Part shown: in pieces, positions 30,434 to 39,098 of the stretch
How the letters are laid out: every line of letters starts with the position of its first letter
How positions within the stretch are numbered: position 1 is the stretch's first letter
Assembly (NCBI RefSeq): GCF_041435335.1
Contig: NZ_CP108430.1
Coordinates: forward strand, 3,640,501-3,704,500
Length of the DNA: 64,000 bases
Reading direction: 5' to 3'
Source: Streptomyces sp. NBC_01283
GTDB taxonomy: Bacteria; Actinomycetota; Actinomycetes; Streptomycetales; Streptomycetaceae
Made by a program: the position numbers and the translations under genes
The notes under the pieces: model-generated
Seen by the model: only the letters and a program-made list of their open reading frames with translations
Told to the model about the DNA's origin: nothing
Databases searched by the model: none

Positions 30434-31042
30434 TCAGTCGGCCAGGTGAACGGAGAAGAGAACGGATGCGTCCGGGAGATCATCCAGCTCGAAGTCATCC
30501 GGATCGATCTCGAAAGAGCCGCCGTCGCCGCAGTCGAATTCCACGGTCTTCTCCGGATCGGACGAAAGAGCAACATCACAGCGCGGCTTGATAATGGCAG
30601 TGGCCTCGGCCGTGGCATGCTGGCTCTCCGTGCCTGGAATGATCGAATCGCCAACGGTGTAGTTGGTCTCGACCTTCACCCGGAAGCCCGGAAAGCCATT
30701 CACTTCAGCCGCCCCGAACTGCCTCACCGCCGAGTCGTTGTCCGCAGCCAGCGCATCCGCCGCAGCTTGGGCACCGTCACCGTTGGGCTTGTCTCCACCA
30801 AGCCAGTCGAGCCAGTCGTCTCCTTCGCCGATGGAGGCCCCCAGCCCGTCGACCAGTTCATCTCGGGCCTCCTGCGCAGCCGCCAGCGCTGCGGCGTCGG
30901 CGGCGGACTGAGCACCATTTCGCGCAGATGCGGCTTGCGCGAACGCGAAGAACGCGAACGCAACAAAGAGCAGAATCCCCGTCACCCAGATGTAGATGGG
31001 GAGAGTCTGCCCTGAGTCATTGAGTAGGGGACGGCGGTTCAG
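30434..31042 (-). CDS. TadG/TadE-like pilus assembly protein (non-canonical start)
   Basis: The protein has the Streptomyces TadG-like opening NDSGQTLPIYIWVTGILLFVAFAFFAFAQAASARNGAQSAADAAALAAAQ, one N-terminal membrane helix, and an acidic extracellular domain of about 150 residues. No ATG, GTG or TTG lies in frame between the upstream stop region and the membrane helix. The nearest candidates are CTG 31042, which overlaps the pilin stop (CTGA), or a GTG inside the helix (IWVTG). I give the CTG, which implies translational coupling. Such proteins are thought to act as minor pilins or wall anchors in Tad systems. Confidence 0.75.
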   Translation of the reverse strand: MNRRPLLNDSGQTLPIYIWVTGILLFVAFAFFAFAQAASARNGAQSAADAAALAAAQEARDELVDGLGASIGEGDDWLDWLGGDKPNGDGAQAAADALAADNDSAVRQFGAAEVNGFPGFRVKVETNYTVGDSIIPGTESQHATAEATAIIKPRCDVALSSDPEKTVEFDCGDGGSFEIDPDDFELDDLPDASVLFSVHLAD

Positions 31043-31356
31043 CCGCCGATCACGTCCGACACGGCGTCCTGAATCGCGCCGGAGATCTGGCCGTCGAGAC
31101 CCAGACCGTCGATGAGCACGAAGATCCCCGCAATAAGAATCATCAACCCCGCATACTCCACAAACCCAGCCCCCGCATCCCGCTCCCTCCCCCGAACCCG
31201 GGAAGAAACGTTCACGGTCCAGTCGACCCAGACTCTGAGTACGCGATCTTTCAGCACGACGGCCCCTTCTCTCCCACCCGATACACGCACTGCTGGCGCA
31301 GCCAATTCCGACGTCGCTGTCGTCATAGGCAACGTACGCGAGATCATGTGACCCAT
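31039..31356 (-). CDS. Flp-type pilin
   Basis: The 105-residue precursor ends in a classic Flp segment, DAGAGFVEYAGLMILIAGIF followed by VLIDGLGLDG. The glycine before AGFVEY gives the G/xxxxEY prepilin site with Glu at +5 and Tyr at +6. The mature peptide would be only about 40 residues, typical of Flp pilins. The leader is unusually long (about 60 residues) if ATG 31356 is used, which has GGAGAG 7 nt upstream. A shorter start is possible, but no better ribosome site is seen. It is the likely major subunit of the Tad pilus. Confidence 0.82.
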   Translation of the reverse strand: MGHMISRTLPMTTATSELAAPAVRVSGGREGAVVLKDRVLRVWVDWTVNVSSRVRGRERDAGAGFVEYAGLMILIAGIFVLIDGLGLDGQISGAIQDAVSDVIGG

Positions 31357-31702: not shown

Positions 31703-32593
31703 TCACTTCCCCAGGATGGAGCCGAAGTCGGAACCCGAACCCAGGAACATCCCTGCCGCGATCAGAATCATCGTGGCCGGAAGCATGAAGACCAGCGTCA
31801 CCATGGTCGCCTTGGGGATCGTCTTCGCCGCCCTGCGGCGGGAGTTCTGGGCGTCCGTACGGCGCATGTCCGTGGCCAGTTGGATCAGCGTGTCCGCGAT
31901 GGGGGAGCCCAGCTCCTCGCCTTGTTGTAGTGCCGAGACGAATTGCGAGACCTGCTCCGAGGCGTTCCTGCGGCGCAGCTCGTCGAAGGCCTGGCGGCGG
32001 CTCACGCCCATGTCCATCTGGCGCAGGGTGATGCGCAGTTCGTCCGCCCAGGGGCCCTCGTAGCGCTCCGCGACGCGGTCCAGCGCCTGGCGGAAGCCGA
32101 GGCCCGCCGACACCACCACCGCCAGTACGTCGAGGAAGTCCGGCAGTGTGCGGTCGATGACCTCGCGCCGTTCCCGTATCGCCTGCCAGATCAGCGCGTC
32201 CGCCGCCGTCACGCCGAAGGCGAAGGTGAGCAGGCCGAAGAGCGAGGAGCCGTTCGTGAGGAAGATCAGGCCCATGAGCAGGCCGAAGATGCCGTACACC
32301 GCCCGTCGCGCCGCATAGCGGTCGATCGTCAGGCCGCCCGGGTTGCCCGCCATGTCTATCTTGCGGCGCTTGGCGTCCACCCGTTTCGGGCCCATCAGGC
32401 GCAGGACGTAGGGGGCGAAGCGGATGCCAAGGCGGTCCACCGCCGAGCCCGCCGTGGAGACGCGCGTGGCGCCGACCTCCAGGGCTATCGCCAGGTCCGA
32501 GGGGAGTTTCGCCTCCGCCCGGTACATGCGGATGCCCTGACAGACCCCCGCCACCGCGAGGCCCATCACGGCCGCCATCGCCAGACCGAACAC
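31703..32593 (-). CDS. TadC-like type II secretion F family protein
   Basis: The 296-residue inner-membrane protein has an N-terminal TM and two TMs near 105-140. The GspF/TadC cytoplasmic domain has LPDFLDVLAVVVSAGLGFRQALDRVAERYEGP and LQQGEELGSPIADTLIQLATDMRRTDAQ, and a final TM pair follows (TLVFMLPATMILIAAGMFL). With TadB it forms the platform for pilus assembly. It lies 10 nt downstream of tadB in the same operon. Confidence 0.93.
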   Translation of the reverse strand: MFGLAMAAVMGLAVAGVCQGIRMYRAEAKLPSDLAIALEVGATRVSTAGSAVDRLGIRFAPYVLRLMGPKRVDAKRRKIDMAGNPGGLTIDRYAARRAVYGIFGLLMGLIFLTNGSSLFGLLTFAFGVTAADALIWQAIRERREVIDRTLPDFLDVLAVVVSAGLGFRQALDRVAERYEGPWADELRITLRQMDMGVSRRQAFDELRRRNASEQVSQFVSALQQGEELGSPIADTLIQLATDMRRTDAQNSRRRAAKTIPKATMVTLVFMLPATMILIAAGMFLGSGSDFGSILGK

Positions 32594-32603
32594 GTCCCGC
32601 TCC

Positions 32604-33548
32604 CTACACTTCGATCTTGCCGAGGCGCCTGATCACGAAGAAGCCCACGGCGTACAGGCCCAGCGCGATCAGGATCAGCGTCTGGCCCATCGGTGAACCT
32701 GTCACCCGGGCCAGCGCGCCCTCGTTGGAGGAGTTGATGAGCAGCAGCGAGCCGAGGCCCAGGAGCGGCACCGTGAACGCCGTCGCGTGGACCTCCGAGA
32801 GCATGGTGCGCACCTCCCGGCGGGTCTCCTTGCGGTCCTCCAGCGTCTGCGTGAGGTTTCGGAGGGAGTTGACCACCGAACCGCCCGCCTTGTTGGAGAG
32901 GACCAGGGTCGTCACCAGGACTATGAGTTCGCGGGATGGCAGGCGTGCCGCCAGTTCGCCCAGCGTGTCGTCGATCGATCTGCCCAGCGTCAACTGGTCC
33001 GCCACCATGGACAGTTCCTCGCCCGCCGGGGCCTCCAGCTCCTCCGCCGCCATCGCCAGCGACGTACGCAGCGCCAGGCCGGCCGCCGTTGCATTCGCCA
33101 GGATGCGTGCCACGTCGGGGAGTTGGTTGATGAAGGCCTCGATGCGCTTCTGACGTTGCCAGTTGAGGAACACCACCGCGCTCCAGACCGCCACGATGCC
33201 CGCGATCGGGCCGAAGAAGGGGGCCAGGGTGGCCGCCGCCATCAGCCAGAGCGCGGCGACGACCGCCACGACGTAGACGAAGAACTCGCCCGCCGTCAGG
33301 TCGAGTCCCGTCGCCGACAGGCGCAGGTGGATGGCGCGGCCGAGGCGGGTGCGGCGCAGGCGGCGGTCCACGGACGAGAAGCGCCGGCCGCGACCGCCGG
33401 TGTCGCCCGTGCCGGGGCCGATCGACAGGCGGTCGACCAGCGCCTGGCGCTGGGCACGGCCCGACGCGTACGCGTGGATTCCCGCGACGGCGAGCGTGCC
33501 GGTCAGGATCGTGGCGCCGAGGGCCAGGAGGGCGGCCTGGTTCTCCAT
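32604..33548 (-). CDS. TadB-like type II secretion F family protein
   Basis: The 314-residue protein has an N-terminal TM (ALLALGATILTGTLAVAGI) and a TM pair near 90-140. The conserved F domain is LPDVARILANATAAGLALRTSLAMAAEELEAP with SIDDTLGELAARLPSRELIVLVTTLVLSNKAGGS, and C-terminal TMs follow. It pairs with TadC as the membrane platform of the Tad machine. Its start overlaps the tadA stop by one base. Confidence 0.93.
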   Translation of the reverse strand: MENQAALLALGATILTGTLAVAGIHAYASGRAQRQALVDRLSIGPGTGDTGGRGRRFSSVDRRLRRTRLGRAIHLRLSATGLDLTAGEFFVYVVAVVAALWLMAAATLAPFFGPIAGIVAVWSAVVFLNWQRQKRIEAFINQLPDVARILANATAAGLALRTSLAMAAEELEAPAGEELSMVADQLTLGRSIDDTLGELAARLPSRELIVLVTTLVLSNKAGGSVVNSLRNLTQTLEDRKETRREVRTMLSEVHATAFTVPLLGLGSLLLINSSNEGALARVTGSPMGQTLILIALGLYAVGFFVIRRLGKIEV

Positions 33549-34906
33549 CAGCCGATCGCCTCTCTCGTGTTCAGTACGTCGATGGCCTGGGCCACGCCGA
33601 AACCGGGCGGCACCGGTTCGCCCGCCACGTACAGCCGCTCGGCGACGGAGCGTGGCAGCGGCAGGTGTTCGAAGTAGCCGTGCACGCGGCGGTCCAGGCC
33701 GCCGCCGCCCGGCTGGTGCGGCACGAAGCGGGTCGCCGGGGCGATGCGGAACTGTTCGCGGCCGTGCGAGACGAGCAGGACGATCTCGGCGATCTTGCGG
33801 GAGCCGTCCGCGTGCCGGGCGAGCTGGACGACCACGTCGACCGCCGAGTTGATCTGGTCCTTCAGTGCCTCGAAGGGGATCTGGACCTCCGACATCGAGC
33901 CGAGGGTCTGCAGCCGCATCAGGGCGTCCTCCGCCGTGTTCGCGTGGACCGTGGCGAGGGAGCCGTCGTGGCCCGTCGACATGGCTTGCAGCATGTCGAG
34001 CGTTTCGCCGCCTCGGACCTCACCGACGATGATGCGGTCGGGGCGCATACGGAGGCTGTTGCGGACCAGGTCGCGGATGGTGATCTGGCCCTTTCCCTCG
34101 ACGTTCGGGGGGCGGGATTCGAGGCGGATCACGTGGTCCTGCTGGAGTTGCAGTTCCGCCGAGTCCTCGATGGTGATGATGCGTTCGTGGCTGGGGAGGA
34201 GGCCGGAGAGCGCGTTGAGGAGCGTCGTCTTTCCGGAGCCCGTGCCGCCGCTGACGATGATGTTGAAGCGGGCCCGCACGAAGGCGGAGAGCAGGAGCAG
34301 CATGTGCTCGTCGAGCGAGCCGAGGCCGATGAGCTCGTGCAGCGTGTACGCGCGGGGGAAGCGGCGGATGGTGAGCGTCGCGCCGGTGAGGGCCAGCGGC
34401 GGGATGATCACGTTCACCCGCTCGCCGGTGGGGAGGCGGGCGTCGACCATCGGGTTCGACTCGTCGACGCGGCGGTTGACCGTGGAGACGATGCGTTCGA
34501 TGGTCTGCATCAGCTGGTCGTTCGAGGCGAAGCGGAGGGGGAGCTGTTCGACCCGGCCCGCCCGCTCCACGAAGATCGAGTCCGGGCCGTTCACCATGAT
34601 TTCCGTGATGGAGGCGTCGGCGAGGAGTGGTTCGAGTACGCCGAGTCCGAGGGCCTCGTCCACCACGCGGCGGATGAGCTGGGAGCGCTCGGAGGTCGAG
34701 AGGACGGGGCCTTCGCGGCTGATGATGTGGCCCATGACGCGTTCGAGACGGACGCGGCGGTCGGCCGCCGTCAGGGACGACATCTCGGCGAGGTCGATCT
34801 CTTCCAGGAGCTTGGAGCGGTAGACGGCCACGAGGCTGTCGTCGCGGCTGGGGCCGTTGTCCTTGCTGTGGTCGTGCGCGGTCGCCACGCGGTCGCGGAG
34901 GCTCAT
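33548..34906 (-). CDS. TadA/CpaF secretion ATPase
   Basis: This hexameric ATPase powers Tad pilus assembly. It has 452 residues. The N-terminal domain has VDEALGLGVLEPLLADASITEIMVNGPDSIFVE. Walker A is ISGGTGSGKTTLLNALSG near 228 (with one V before), followed by the Asp box ITIEDSAELQL, a Walker B region DRIIVGEVRGGETLDML and the His box STGHDGSLATVHANT. The C-terminal 60 residues carry a Pro/Gly-rich extension. It is followed without a gap by tadB, and its start lies 10 nt after the tadE stop. Confidence 0.96.
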   Translation of the reverse strand: MSLRDRVATAHDHSKDNGPSRDDSLVAVYRSKLLEEIDLAEMSSLTAADRRVRLERVMGHIISREGPVLSTSERSQLIRRVVDEALGLGVLEPLLADASITEIMVNGPDSIFVERAGRVEQLPLRFASNDQLMQTIERIVSTVNRRVDESNPMVDARLPTGERVNVIIPPLALTGATLTIRRFPRAYTLHELIGLGSLDEHMLLLLSAFVRARFNIIVSGGTGSGKTTLLNALSGLLPSHERIITIEDSAELQLQQDHVIRLESRPPNVEGKGQITIRDLVRNSLRMRPDRIIVGEVRGGETLDMLQAMSTGHDGSLATVHANTAEDALMRLQTLGSMSEVQIPFEALKDQINSAVDVVVQLARHADGSRKIAEIVLLVSHGREQFRIAPATRFVPHQPGGGGLDRRVHGYFEHLPLPRSVAERLYVAGEPVPPGFGVAQAIDVLNTREAIG

Positions 34907-34915
34907 CTTCTTCTC

Positions 34916-35404
34916 TCAGCTCCCCTCTTCGTCTTCGTCGTTGGGCATCGTGGCCGACTTCGTGACGGACCAGCCTGCGTCCACGAAGGGCAGGAGCGTG
35001 GGGACCTGGACGGTGACGTCCGCCGTCGTCGTGGCGCCGCCGCCGCTGATGGCGACCTGGGCGTCGAGGCTGCCGTCCATGGCCGCCATGCCCGCGGCCT
35101 CGCCGCCCTCGCCCTGCGAGGCGACGCGGGCCGCCGCACGCGCGCCTGAACCGGCCTGGTTGACGGCGTAGCCGACGAGGCCCAGCTGGATCGTGGCCAG
35201 GCCGATGAGGAGCAGGATGGGGAGGAAGCCGGCGAACTCCAGCATGGATACGCCTCGGTCGTCGAAGGTGTGCTTCCTGCTTGGACCCTGCCGCCTGTTC
35301 GGACCTCGCCGCCTACGGGGACGATCCAGCCCGTCCGGCGTTTGAGGACGAACTCGGCGGAGCCGGTGATCGACGGTACGCAAGGCTGCCGGGTCACCCC
35401 TCAC
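34916..35404 (-). CDS. TadE-like pseudopilin with repeat-derived leader
   Basis: The mature-like part has the prepilin site DDRG/VSMLEF (Glu +5, Phe +6), one TM (AGFLPILLLIGLATIQLGLVGYAV), and an extracellular domain of about 90 residues ending NDEDEEGS. ATG 35245 would remove the cleavage glycine, so I favour GTG 35404. That start has AAGGAGG 9 nt upstream and overlaps the preceding stop. This gives 162 residues with a basic leader of about 51 residues, part of which is encoded by a dispersed intergenic repeat (35327-35360). Either start leaves the pilin domain intact. Confidence 0.8.
   Translation of the reverse strand: MRGDPAALRTVDHRLRRVRPQTPDGLDRPRRRRGPNRRQGPSRKHTFDDRGVSMLEFAGFLPILLLIGLATIQLGLVGYAVNQAGSGARAAARVASQGEGGEAAGMAAMDGSLDAQVAISGGGATTTADVTVQVPTLLPFVDAGWSVTKSATMPNDEDEEGS
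35327..35360. repeat. Dispersed Streptomyces intergenic repeat (CAGCCCGTCCGGCGTTTGAG type)
   Basis: The 34-bp segment starting CAGCCCGTCCGGCGTTTGAG is one I remember as very common between genes in Streptomyces. Here it lies between the TadZ-TadE and TadE coding parts and remains in frame with the TadE leader. Confidence 0.6.
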
Positions 35405-37013
35405 CGTCCTCACCCTCCTTCGCCGCCCCCGCCTCCCCGCTCACGTTCCACCCCGCGTCGATCCCGGGGAAGAACAGCGGGACGTCCGCGTCCACGTGGG
35501 CCTTCCAGACCGTCCCCTCGTCCGTGCAGGCCACGTCCGCGCCCTGCCACGCCGACGGCAGATGCTCCTTCGCGGCGGCCTCGCAGGCCGCCGCCCCGCC
35601 CTCGCCCACGGCGTACGCGGCCGTCGCCGCCCGCGCCGCCTCGTCCGCCGCGTTGCCCGCGAGGGAGAACGTGTATCCGTACAGCGCGCACTGCCACAGG
35701 AGGCCCATCACGGCGAGCAGCAGCGGGAACATCCCGGCGAACTCCAGGGTGACCGCGCCCCGGTCGCCACCGACCCGCTTGCGGAGGTTCAGCGCGCCCC
35801 GCTTGGTGGCGCCGGACGCCGCCTCGGGGTCCACCAGGCCCAGCTCGCCCGCCAGCGCCCACAGGGCCTGCTTCACCGTGGATTTGCTGTCCAGGTCCTG
35901 CATGCGGCCCGCGTCGACCGCGCCCTGCAGCTCCTTGAAGTTCGCGGGGACGGTCGTACGGGCCACCTTCGTTCCCGTCACCCGTTCCACCAGGGAGGGC
36001 TGGATGTCCGCGCCCTTTCCGTGGCGGTTGACCACCGTGAGCGTCTCCTCCGCCTTGCGGATCTGGAGCCGGTCCCACAGGCGCACCATGCGCTTGGCGG
36101 CGCGTACGGAGACGACGTCCGGGGTGACGAGGAGGATCGCCTGGTCGGCGAGTTCGATGGCGGCGGCGCTCGCCCCGGTGACGTACGTCCCGCAGTCGAC
36201 CAGCACGACGTCGTAGCGGCTGCGCAGGGCGCTGAGCGTCTGGCGGGCCACCCGGTCGGTGATCTCCTCGCCCCGCTCGCCCTCGCTGGGGGCCAGGAGG
36301 AGGCCGATGCCGGTCTCGTGGGTGTAGACGGCGTCCTGGAGGACGCGGGGCGTGATGTCGGTGATCGACGCGAGGTCGGCGATGGAGCGGCGGAACTGGA
36401 CGTCCAGGTACGAGGAGACGTCGCCGGCCTGCAGGTCCAGGTCGAGGAGGGCGACGGTGCGGCCGGACGCCTTTGCCGCGAGGGCGAGTTGGACGGTGGC
36501 GAGGGTCGTGCCCACGCCTCCCTTGGCCCCGCTCACCGCCACGACGTGGCCGCCGCCCGGGGCCTCCCCCGGACCGGCGTAGAGCTCCACGCCCGCGCTG
36601 CCCAGGTGCCTGCGCATCCCGGCGGACCAGGCGGCCGCCGCGTGCACCCGCTCGGCGAGTGGGTCGTAGGCGAGGGGGAAGCCGACGATGCCGCGCGCGC
36701 CGGAGTCCATCGCGGCGGTCAGCAGGGCCGGGCTCGTGTCGGCGGTGATCAGGACGACGCCGACCGCCGGAAAGCGCAGGACGAGGTCGCGGATCAGGTC
36801 CAGGGCGGGTACGGGGCTGATGCGCTCGTGGATGAGGACGACTTCGGGCAGCTCGTCCAGCGACTCGGCGGCGAGCCTCGCCAGGGTGTCGAGCAGTGCG
36901 GTGGAGTCCGCGACGGGGAGGGCGGGTTCGGCGTCCGGAAGCTGTCCGACGAGCGTCGAGAGCGCGCGGGCGGCCTCCAGGTCCCCTACGGCGGGGAGGA
37001 TGCGGGTCGTCAT
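35394..37013 (-). CDS. TadZ/CpaE-like ATPase fused to a TadE pseudopilin
   Basis: The 539-residue chain has three parts. Residues 1-130 form a receiver-like domain (VVLIHERISPVPALDLIRDLVLRFP). Residues 150-400 are a MinD/ParA-type ATPase with deviant Walker A VSGAKGGVGTTLA, LLDLDLQAGDVSSYL and VVLVDCGTYVTGAS, as in TadZ/CpaE localisation factors. Residues 410-539 are a TadE pseudopilin with RVGGDRG/AVTLEFAGMFPLLLAVMGLLW, a prepilin-type site after Gly419, one TM, and an extracellular domain with two Cys. There is no stop or start between the parts. TadZ and TadE are usually separate proteins. Prepilin peptidase cleavage would release both parts. Confidence 0.9.
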   Translation of the reverse strand: MTTRILPAVGDLEAARALSTLVGQLPDAEPALPVADSTALLDTLARLAAESLDELPEVVLIHERISPVPALDLIRDLVLRFPAVGVVLITADTSPALLTAAMDSGARGIVGFPLAYDPLAERVHAAAAWSAGMRRHLGSAGVELYAGPGEAPGGGHVVAVSGAKGGVGTTLATVQLALAAKASGRTVALLDLDLQAGDVSSYLDVQFRRSIADLASITDITPRVLQDAVYTHETGIGLLLAPSEGERGEEITDRVARQTLSALRSRYDVVLVDCGTYVTGASAAAIELADQAILLVTPDVVSVRAAKRMVRLWDRLQIRKAEETLTVVNRHGKGADIQPSLVERVTGTKVARTTVPANFKELQGAVDAGRMQDLDSKSTVKQALWALAGELGLVDPEAASGATKRGALNLRKRVGGDRGAVTLEFAGMFPLLLAVMGLLWQCALYGYTFSLAGNAADEAARAATAAYAVGEGGAAACEAAAKEHLPSAWQGADVACTDEGTVWKAHVDADVPLFFPGIDAGWNVSGEAGAAKEGEDGEG

Positions 37014-37191: not shown

Positions 37192-37911
37192 CTACTTGTC
37201 CTCGTCGAGTGTGTACGTGCGGTCGCCCCGCGGAATCGCGCTGTCCCCGCCCTGGCCGACCAGGGCGAGCCGCACATGCGTGGCGAACGACTCCGCGTAC
37301 GCGACGCGCTGCGCGTTCGCCGTGTCGAGCGCGAACGTGATCGGCACCGCCTCGGTCGCCGTACGCCGGCGATTGCCGCCGCGGTCGTCCTGGTCCGGGT
37401 CGAGCGCCGTCAGCTTGCCCACGTCGATCACCTTCGCGGACTCGACGATGACCTTCGACTGGTCCTTGGCCTTGTCGGTCTCGCCCTTGAAGGTGGCGTA
37501 GATGTTGACCGTCGAGCCCGGCGTGATCTTGCCCGCGACGCCCGTCGCCGCGTCGATCATGATGGCGATCTCCTGCTGCCCCGGCTCCAGTTCAGGACGA
37601 TTGACGATCATGTCCGTCTGGAGCAGCGACCCCTTGCGCAGCTCGGTCACCGCGATCTTGCCGCGCACCTGGCGGAGGTCGGTGACCGCGTTGTCCGAAA
37701 GCCACCGCTCCGGCATCTCGACCTTCTCGAACTGGTCCGCGCTGAGCTCCTTGTAGGGGGCGATGTCCCCCTTGAGCTTGTACGCCGTCACCTCCGGCCC
37801 CACCTTCGAGTTCACGTCCCGGATCAGCGAGAGGACGCCCGCGAACGCGCCGAACGCGGCCAGGACCGACAGGACCAGCAGGATGACGCCGCGGCGCTGG
37901 CGTGAGTTCAT
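37192..37911 (-). CDS. CpaB/RcpC-like Flp pilus assembly protein (SAF domain)
   Basis: The 239-residue protein has an N-terminal membrane anchor (GVILLVLSVLAAFGAFAGVLSLI) and a SAF domain (VTAYKLKGDIAPYKELSADQF, ITELRKGSLLQTDMI-like, here VTELRKGSLLQTDM). The RcpC/CpaB part follows (QQEIAIMIDAATGVAGKITPGSTVNIYATF), then TFALDTANAQRVAYAESFATHVRLALV. In Gram-negative Tad systems CpaB supports the secretin or wall passage. Its role without an outer membrane is open. It lies second in the Tad operon. Confidence 0.9.
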   Translation of the reverse strand: MNSRQRRGVILLVLSVLAAFGAFAGVLSLIRDVNSKVGPEVTAYKLKGDIAPYKELSADQFEKVEMPERWLSDNAVTDLRQVRGKIAVTELRKGSLLQTDMIVNRPELEPGQQEIAIMIDAATGVAGKITPGSTVNIYATFKGETDKAKDQSKVIVESAKVIDVGKLTALDPDQDDRGGNRRRTATEAVPITFALDTANAQRVAYAESFATHVRLALVGQGGDSAIPRGDRTYTLDEDK

Positions 37912-38061: not shown

Positions 38062-38967
38062 CTACGTCGCGCCTCTCGGCAGCGCCCGCAGCACCCGGGC
38101 CGGACCCGGGGCCGCGGCGGGCGCCGAGCGTTCGGGGGGCGGCAGGAGTGGTGCGGCGCAGAAGCCGCAGCGGTCGCCGATGAGTTCGAGACCGCACCAG
38201 TGGCAGTCGTCCCGCCGGACGGACGACACCAGTTGGTAGAGCACGGAGATGTCGGGGATCGCCGCGGCGAACTCGACGATCTTGCCCGTCGCCCACCAGC
38301 GCGCGGACTCCCCCGGAAGGCGCGCCTCCGACACCTCCTGGGACCGCCAGGCCGGGGCGAGCGTCCCGGTCACCCAGTCGGACCCCAGCTGCCCGGTGGC
38401 GTACAGCAGCTTCGTGCCGAAGCCGGGTCCTGGCAGCGTCGCGTCCCCCGTGACCTTGACCAGCTCGGGGCGCGGCGTGGCGAGGACGGCGAACTGGGCG
38501 CCCGGCACCCATGACTTGGCGTGCGACTGCAGCGTGACCGGCACCCGGTCCAGCTTCGCCACGGAGCCGAGCAGCGCGCCCGCGTAGATGTAGTGGGACA
38601 GGAGCCGTCCCGCCGACGCGAGGACGCCGGGGCTGAAGTCGCAGATCGACAGCTGGCGGAGCTGCAGCGCGAGGACCGCGAGGCCGAGCGGCGGCAGGTC
38701 CGGGCGGAGGATCGCGATGCGGTCGCTCTCCAGGACGGAGCGGATCGCGTGCATGCGCTGAACGAGGGCGGGCGGCGCCGATGCCGGGCAGAGGACGATC
38801 ACATAGCCGTGGTGCTCGATGAGCGTGTGCATCTCGGTGAGCGCCTGGTCCAGGGAGTACGTCCGTGGTGACTGGACCGCGCTCTGCAGGACGGCCGCCG
38901 ATGGGGTGTGCCGGTCGGGCGACGGCAGCACCAGGTCAGGGCCGGTGACGGCTATGGCGGTCGGCAT
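38062..38967 (-). CDS. Tad-cluster protein of unknown function with C-terminal zinc ribbon
   Basis: The 301-residue protein has no signal or TM. Its first 120 residues resemble a nucleotide- or receiver-type alpha/beta fold (LTEMHTLIEHHGYVIVLCPASAPPALVQRMHAIRSVL). The middle is unrecognised. The last 45 residues carry a zinc-ribbon-like CHWCGLELIGDRCGFCAAP and a Pro/Ala-rich end. I cannot name it. It is the first gene of the Tad operon by position and orientation, so a cytoplasmic regulatory or assembly role is the simplest guess. ATG 38967 has GGGGGTG upstream. Confidence 0.75.
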   Translation of the reverse strand: MPTAIAVTGPDLVLPSPDRHTPSAAVLQSAVQSPRTYSLDQALTEMHTLIEHHGYVIVLCPASAPPALVQRMHAIRSVLESDRIAILRPDLPPLGLAVLALQLRQLSICDFSPGVLASAGRLLSHYIYAGALLGSVAKLDRVPVTLQSHAKSWVPGAQFAVLATPRPELVKVTGDATLPGPGFGTKLLYATGQLGSDWVTGTLAPAWRSQEVSEARLPGESARWWATGKIVEFAAAIPDISVLYQLVSSVRRDDCHWCGLELIGDRCGFCAAPLLPPPERSAPAAAPGPARVLRALPRGAT

Positions 38968-39098
38968 GCGCACACCCCCGGTCTTCAAGCACTTCTGCCT
39001 CAGCACCTTATCCAGGTCAGCGCCACCTCAACACCCAACTTCCCACTGTTCACATTGAGGTTGGCCGGACTGGCGGGGTCCGGGTGGCGCCAGAGGTA

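Follow-up and report, generated by a model that had tools for sequence, protein, structure and literature searches.

In Streptomyces sp. NBC_01283, the tadZ and tadE genes of a tad operon form a single reading frame, the product of which joins a ParA/MinD-type ATPase to a TadE-type minor pilin across an intact prepilin-peptidase site. To judge from sequence comparisons, this product is probably a polyprotein that is processed by a prepilin peptidase after G419. Such processing had been put forward in the original prediction; the fusion and the intact site stood, both proved to be conserved and recurrent, and for cleavage itself the support is comparative. Cleavage is favored by a Gly residue at -1 that is invariant behind a freely varying linker, by the many fused genes devoid of an internal start codon, and by a peptidase gene that turned up in all the fused genomes analysed. 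The gene was analysed within a window of 64,000 nucleotides (NZ_CP108430.1, positions 3,640,501 to 3,704,500), in which all coordinates are given (Table 1).

The fused frame starts with an ATG at 37013 and ends with a stop codon at 35394-35396 on the minus strand; the plus-strand reading of the same interval is unrelated. It had been claimed that one frame carries a ParA/MinD-type ATPase followed by the motif G/AVTLEF and a transmembrane (TM) segment, which the open reading frame and the Pfam matches bear out, and the placement of Gly419, of Glu at +5 and of 120 residues past the Gly was exact. AAA_31 matches residues 156-319 with 43.4 bits (cut-off 27), ParA and CbiA are also matched, and the GAKGGVGTT sequence is a deviant Walker A motif as in TadZ/CpaE proteins. 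With TIGR03815, the model for actinobacterial CpaE homologues, the fusion scores 67.5 bits, below the cut-off of 154.45, and its receiver-like N-terminal part gives weak response-regulator matches at residues 53-110 (E 0.003-0.008). The TadE model PF07811 matches residues 419-461 with 30.9 bits (cut-off 22.9). The site reads ...RKRVGGDRG419/AVTLE424F, and the hydropathy maximum of the whole protein begins at residues 420-421, directly after G419. The C-terminal part has the Gly at -1, the Glu at +5 and the ensuing hydrophobic helix of a TadE minor pilin (G419, E424); in place of a short leader, 419 residues precede the predicted cut.

Table 1. Features of the tad operon that contains the fused gene (coordinates in the window).
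Feature	Coordinates	Strand	Basis
CpaB/RcpC	37192..37911	minus	PF16976; TIGR03177 above cut-off
Fused tadZ-tadE gene, 539 aa	35394..37013	minus	ORF, Pfam, homologues of same architecture
ParA/MinD-type ATPase domain, residues 156-319, Walker-A-like GAKGGVGTT	36057..36548	minus	Pfam and sequence
Basic linker, residues 394-419, ending ...RKRVGGDRG, highly variable among relatives	35757..35834	minus	Alignment and linker scan
Predicted prepilin-peptidase cleavage site G419/A420	35754..35759	minus	Sequence; Gly conserved in relatives
Glu424 (+5)	35742..35744	minus	Present in 111/111 aligned proteins
Predicted mature TadE minor pilin, residues 420-539, 120 aa, 12.1 kDa, TM ~421-445	35397..35756	minus	Pfam and hydropathy
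Second TadE-type minor pilin (DDRG/VSMLEF), overlaps the end of the fusion	34916..35413 (start codon provisional)	minus	PF07811, 37.4 bits
TadA/CpaF motor ATPase	33548..34906	minus	PF00437
TadB platform protein	32604..33548	minus	PF00482
TadC platform protein with DUF5936	31703..32593	minus	Pfam
Flp-like major pilin candidate, G/AGFVEY motif by eye, without Pfam match	31039..31356	minus	Sequence
TadG-like protein	30434..31012 (start codon provisional)	minus	PF13400

The fused gene belongs to a minus-strand operon in which cpaB, the fusion, a second tadE, tadA, tadB, tadC, a gene for a Flp-like pilin and a tadG-like gene follow one another. The tad gene set (tadA, tadB, tadC, flp, tadE, tadG-like, cpaB and tadZ) is present, flp being recognized by motif only. 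The order cpaB - tadZ(-tadE) - tadA - tadB - tadC is conserved in all 59 loci compared, and the second TadE (TadE2) was matched in 55 of them, at least five of these matches actually falling on the first one (TadE1). No tadV gene was found within this operon, the only PF01478 match of the genome lying ~435 kb away. The absence of tadV is described as typical of actinobacterial tad loci in passages of one report (PMC4322843); most Gram-positive tad loci do contain tadV, according to parts of another (PMC3244431). Of the five TadE domains in the genome, one belongs to the fusion, one to TadE2 and the remaining three to two further tad-like clusters, which are located at ~4.12 Mb (L095) and ~4.389 Mb (L096) on G000:C1, and no unfused copy of the TadE of the fusion was found among the matches listed. 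Upstream of cpaB, a minus-strand open reading frame of 314 residues (38062-39006) matched neither Pfam nor NCBIfam models at E 0.01; its C-terminal part contains Cys (CHWCGLELIGDRCGFC).

The fusion is recurrent. A protein search yielded 2976 homologues at E<=1e-3 among at least 7996 scored candidates, and the 120 homologues listed, including the protein of the window, all have both the ATPase and the TadE Pfam domains; entries under the names S. avermitilis and S. venezuelae (some strains) are among the proteins found. Within the genus, where 61 of 100 genomes were surveyed and gave 59 readable loci, 17 loci are fused and 42 split, one of the latter having later been left unassigned. With 40 further loci, including some of other genera, the survey comprises 99 loci of the Streptomycetaceae, of which 35 are fused, 63 split and one (L057) unassigned, other fused- or split-looking rows being uncounted. 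Thirty-four of the fused loci were recognized by pattern and one, L137, by hand (Gly and Glu are present, with Ala at +6). L137 apart, no frame of the split class exceeds 485 residues, which is too short for a TadE to be included. Outside the Streptomycetaceae, 17 loci were chosen from the same class, and 10 of them, in four families, are fused, a share that is not a frequency, as the loci were hand-picked from the better rows, several because the match spanned both parts; 20 had been taken, and L311, L312 and L313, which are without a related TadZ tail, were dropped. Among 77 named loci, 70 are fused, L251, L254, L256, L257, L258, L262 and L268 not being counted as such (L254 and L268 may be incomplete); this share is not a frequency either, since fused queries were used to collect, by similarity, both the named loci and a set of 239 proteins, and both sets overlap the 99 loci. 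By name, the holders of the fusion include Actinacidiphila, Wenjunlia and many Streptomyces, and the 21 named loci that are at least 73% identical to L128 comprise 11 from Actinacidiphila, 9 from Streptomyces and 1 from another actinomycete. The assignment of one clade (g35) to Kitasatospora was rejected by the names of its relatives.

Two loci of the survey are peculiar. L066 (G010) has a 700-residue frame TadZ-TadE1-TadE2 and is the only such genome among the 99 loci; the notion of a 'triple fusion' was rejected, as the frame apparently shifts inside the C-terminal part of TadE1. In L057 (G047), TadE1 is out of frame with TadZ, and a search of the junction revealed no start codon near it.

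The residue at -1 appears to be under strong constraint. Gly occupies this position in 236 of 236 fused proteins with a TadE segment, 234 of which were identified by a pattern in which Glu was obligatory and Gly was not, and two (P0234 and P0239) by eye. In this set, TadE was recognized by Pfam in 229 proteins and by motif only in 7, and three others of the 239 (P0158, P0166 and P0173), which are frame-shifted or partial and lack TadE, were excluded. Gly is also found in 70 of 70 named fused loci, with a pattern that did not require it (these overlap with the 35 loci, and L259, mis-matched by the pattern, was set right by hand), and in 10 of 10 distant fused loci with Gly or Ala allowed. Its occurrence in all 35 fused Streptomycetaceae loci is partly by construction, as the pattern used to class the 99 loci required Gly. 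Glu at +5 is present in all these sets, though the patterns required it. All four Gly codons are in use at -1 in the 35 loci (22 GGC, 7 GGA, 4 GGG and 2 GGT), which indicates that the residue is held while its codon turns over. In an alignment of 111 diverse fused proteins out of the 239, column entropy is 0 at D417, G419 and E424, and the mean entropy amounts to 1.91 bits in the linker columns 394-414, 0.62 in the ATPase and 1.38 in the rest of TadE; the region past the TM segment also keeps invariant residues. The linker is 19-276 residues long in the named loci, and a length of 15 residues was found in one distant locus with a slightly different measure. The longest linkers, those of L255 (215 residues), L259 (276) and L260 (184), from S. 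abyssalis and two other strains, are of low complexity and rich in Gly, Pro and Gln, and their cleavage site is intact.

Constraint on Gly at -1, beyond that on Glu at +5 alone, is what cleavage predicts, and is not a prediction of mere anchoring; the Gly could in principle be retained for some other reason. In a rival reading, the chain would remain uncut and the TadE segment would serve only as an anchor for TadZ, in replacement of the C-terminal amphipathic helix through which Caulobacter CpaE is likely to associate with the inner membrane, as passages on that system indicate (PMC13170226). The membrane association of CpaE speaks for such tethering, yet the Gly of a mere anchor would drift, whereas it is kept throughout the 236 proteins and encoded by all four codons in the 35 loci. 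Tethering also fits poorly with the invariant residues past the TM segment and with the split relatives, in which a pattern that accepted Gly or Ala found Gly at the same site in all of the 42 loci counted as split at that point; a permanently tethered TadZ is considered quite improbable. Equally doubtful as a general account is that TadE, besides being part of the fusion, is also made from a start codon in the linker and then has a short leader of the ordinary kind, in which case the fusion would be incidental read-through of two coupled genes. In split relatives, the candidate TadE starts adjoin the TadZ stop codon, just past it, and give leaders of ~7-66 residues. In addition, an in-frame start within 60 codons is accompanied by a Shine-Dalgarno-like 4-mer in 8 of 35 fused genes (in a ninth, L067, it lies at 79), and a linker start with such a 4-mer occurs in 8 of 70 named loci, L259 being outside this count. 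Some fused genes may therefore initiate internally. However, a scan for ATG, GTG and TTG showed that 14 of 35 fused genes lack any such codon in frame from the ATPase core to the Gly, and that the linker is free of them in 30 of 70 named and 6 of 10 distant loci. Unless a rarer start codon, such as CTG or ATT, is used, these genes can provide TadE only from the fusion, and for them internal initiation was rejected. In the fusion of the window, a single weak GTG lies 26 codons before the +1 codon, without a Shine-Dalgarno-like 4-mer.

A different question is why the fusion exists. In a tree built by a quick search from five genes (TadZ residues 1-385, TadA, TadB, TadC and CpaB) of the 99 Streptomycetaceae loci, at least five changes between the fused and split states are needed, four of them forced by well-supported branches. 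Three large fused clades were found, namely that of the window (14 loci), a second Streptomyces clade (7) and Actinacidiphila and its kin (12), and two single fused loci, L140 and L158, lie outside them; L158, together with two split loci, is the nearest relative of the window's clade. An ATPase-only tree of 116 rows, including other families and also obtained by a quick search, requires at least seven changes, four of them forced, but it came with long-branch warnings and places some rows otherwise than the five-gene tree does. The fusion state has thus switched repeatedly. This would be expected if the prepilin were cut as usual and the fusion, without benefit, arose and vanished among neighboring genes that little beyond a stop codon separates. 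The interleaving of fusions and splits points in that direction, as do 19 of 42 split loci, whose TadE already shares its reading frame with TadZ. On the other side, entire clades have stayed fused over long divergence (all 14 loci of the window's clade and all 12 of that of Actinacidiphila), with which neutrality is nevertheless still compatible. A neutral origin is a serious possibility, albeit not the one to be expected most; it is compatible with a cleaved polyprotein, since it concerns only the reason for the fusion, and the probabilities of the two overlap. The distribution also bears on the trivial explanation that a sequencing or assembly error deleted a stop codon between two genes. 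Non-fused loci do occur in the same genus, but the spread of the 35 fused loci over three large separate clades, together with the fusions in the named and distant sets, refutes such an artefact, the chance of which is negligible, and excludes a restriction of the fusion to one assembly, an eventuality that had initially been envisaged.

The sole A24-family peptidase of the genome of the window (PF01478, 53.9 bits) is a protein of 257 residues with the motifs VDFGVHRLPD and GFGDVK, and its gene lies ~9 kb from the tad-like cluster L095. PF01478 is present in all 35 fused genomes, in exactly one copy in 34 of them and in two in G059. In the 30 peptidases compared, all related and taken from 36 matches, GxGDVK is kept without exception, and a pattern for the first Asp, which is narrow, matched 19. 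Several relatives, G160 and G031 among them, have the peptidase gene at a distance of ~8-11 kb from the fusion, a proximity to be expected of an enzyme that works for this pilus. From the parts of the literature that concern the enzyme, prepilin peptidases cut on the cytoplasmic side, and the leader, which ends in Gly or Ala, is cytoplasmic and varies in length among prepilins (PMC10191384). Minor pilins are stated, in passages of a further report, to function only when processed (PMC12075869).

What we infer of insertion, cleavage and assembly, and of any advantage of co-synthesis or of the delivery of TadZ to the membrane, can be outlined as follows. The ATPase part would fold in the cytoplasm, and insertion of the chain, N-in/C-out, would be brought about by the TadE segment (~420-445) in the role of an internal signal-anchor; the basic linker ahead of the TM segment fits the positive-inside rule. 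The A24-family peptidase would then cut the chain of ~56 kDa after G419, yielding a cytoplasmic TadZ of 419 residues (~44 kDa), which retains a basic tail, and a TadE of 120 residues (~12 kDa), and the latter might assemble with the second TadE and the TadG-like protein into a tip complex that primes the pilus. More speculatively, the covalent TadZ-TadE precursor may bring the ATPase to the membrane beside the nascent tip, and the cut may release both. In the Caulobacter model, as far as passages of the report present it, six CpaE dimers surround the motor of each machine, CpaE is associated with the membrane when the machine bears no pilus and is located lower when it does, and minor pilins take up their position at the platform ahead of extension (PMC13170226). 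TadE-type minor pilins have been proposed to sit at the tip (PMC12075869, in part). With six CpaE dimers per machine set against minor pilins of the tip, a simple stoichiometric coupling of TadZ to TadE is not obviously needed by analogy with such a machine; delivery or timing seems a better guess, and a neutral origin is also conceivable. By a bolder and unlikely extension of the cleavage model, the cut would be the trigger of pilus initiation. Uncut TadZ-TadE would dock at the membrane as a ring around the TadA motor, and each cut would free a tip subunit into the platform and allow TadZ to detach from the membrane, which would amount to a covalent version of the downward movement of CpaE that has been reported between the non-piliated and piliated states in Caulobacter.

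The fusion resembles TadZ/CpaE proteins in its ParA/MinD ATPase, its KGGVG motif and its place in the tad operon between cpaB and tadA, but it ends in a pilin signal and a TadE domain, whereas TadZ/CpaE proteins end in a short basic tail. With TadE minor pilins (PF07811) it shares the G/xxxxE site, the TM segment, the TadE domain and the operon position of the split TadE of its relatives; in contrast, its leader is a 419-residue enzyme instead of some 7-66 residues. TadE of Aggregatibacter has been reported to be processed by TadV (Tomich 2006, as cited in PMC3244431 and PMC4322843). Leader length varies widely among prepilins with long leaders, including T4b pilins and the major pilins of S. 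sanguinis (PMC10191384), but in these proteins the leaders are peptides, while the leader of the fusion is a folded enzyme. Similarly, a pilin is joined to an unrelated domain in the modular pilins PilB and PilC of S. sanguinis; there, however, the same passages have the extra domain displayed on the mature pilin, whereas that of the fusion precedes the cut and would stay in the cytoplasm (PMC10191384). Neighboring tad genes are also fused in the TadB-TadC protein of the tad-2 locus of another actinobacterium, Micrococcus luteus, as parts of that report describe it (PMC4322843); unlike TadZ-TadE, it joins two platform proteins and involves no cleavage site. In the open-access PMC literature, covered by titles, the beginnings of abstracts and some passages, no description of a TadZ-TadE fusion or of a prepilin peptidase acting on a polyprotein was found, nor any published prepilin whose leader is a folded domain as large as this one. 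As far as this limited literature search goes, the component families are known, and the TadZ-TadE arrangement, with its putative cleavage, is a new variant.

If the chain is cut, it would be, within the reach of the same search, the first described prepilin with a whole enzyme as its leader, and the prepilin peptidase would serve as a protease for polyproteins. With or without cleavage, the fusion of the localization ATPase with one particular minor pilin has been gained or lost at least five times, which argues for a joint action of the two in space and time. This bears on the role of TadZ/CpaE besides localization and on how the tip is started, and the related split and fused strains of streptomycetes offer natural controls. 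In the split class, a DRG-like motif followed by an Arg/Lys pair occurs in the tail of 38 of 63 TadZ proteins and resembles the stretch before the TadE cleavage site.
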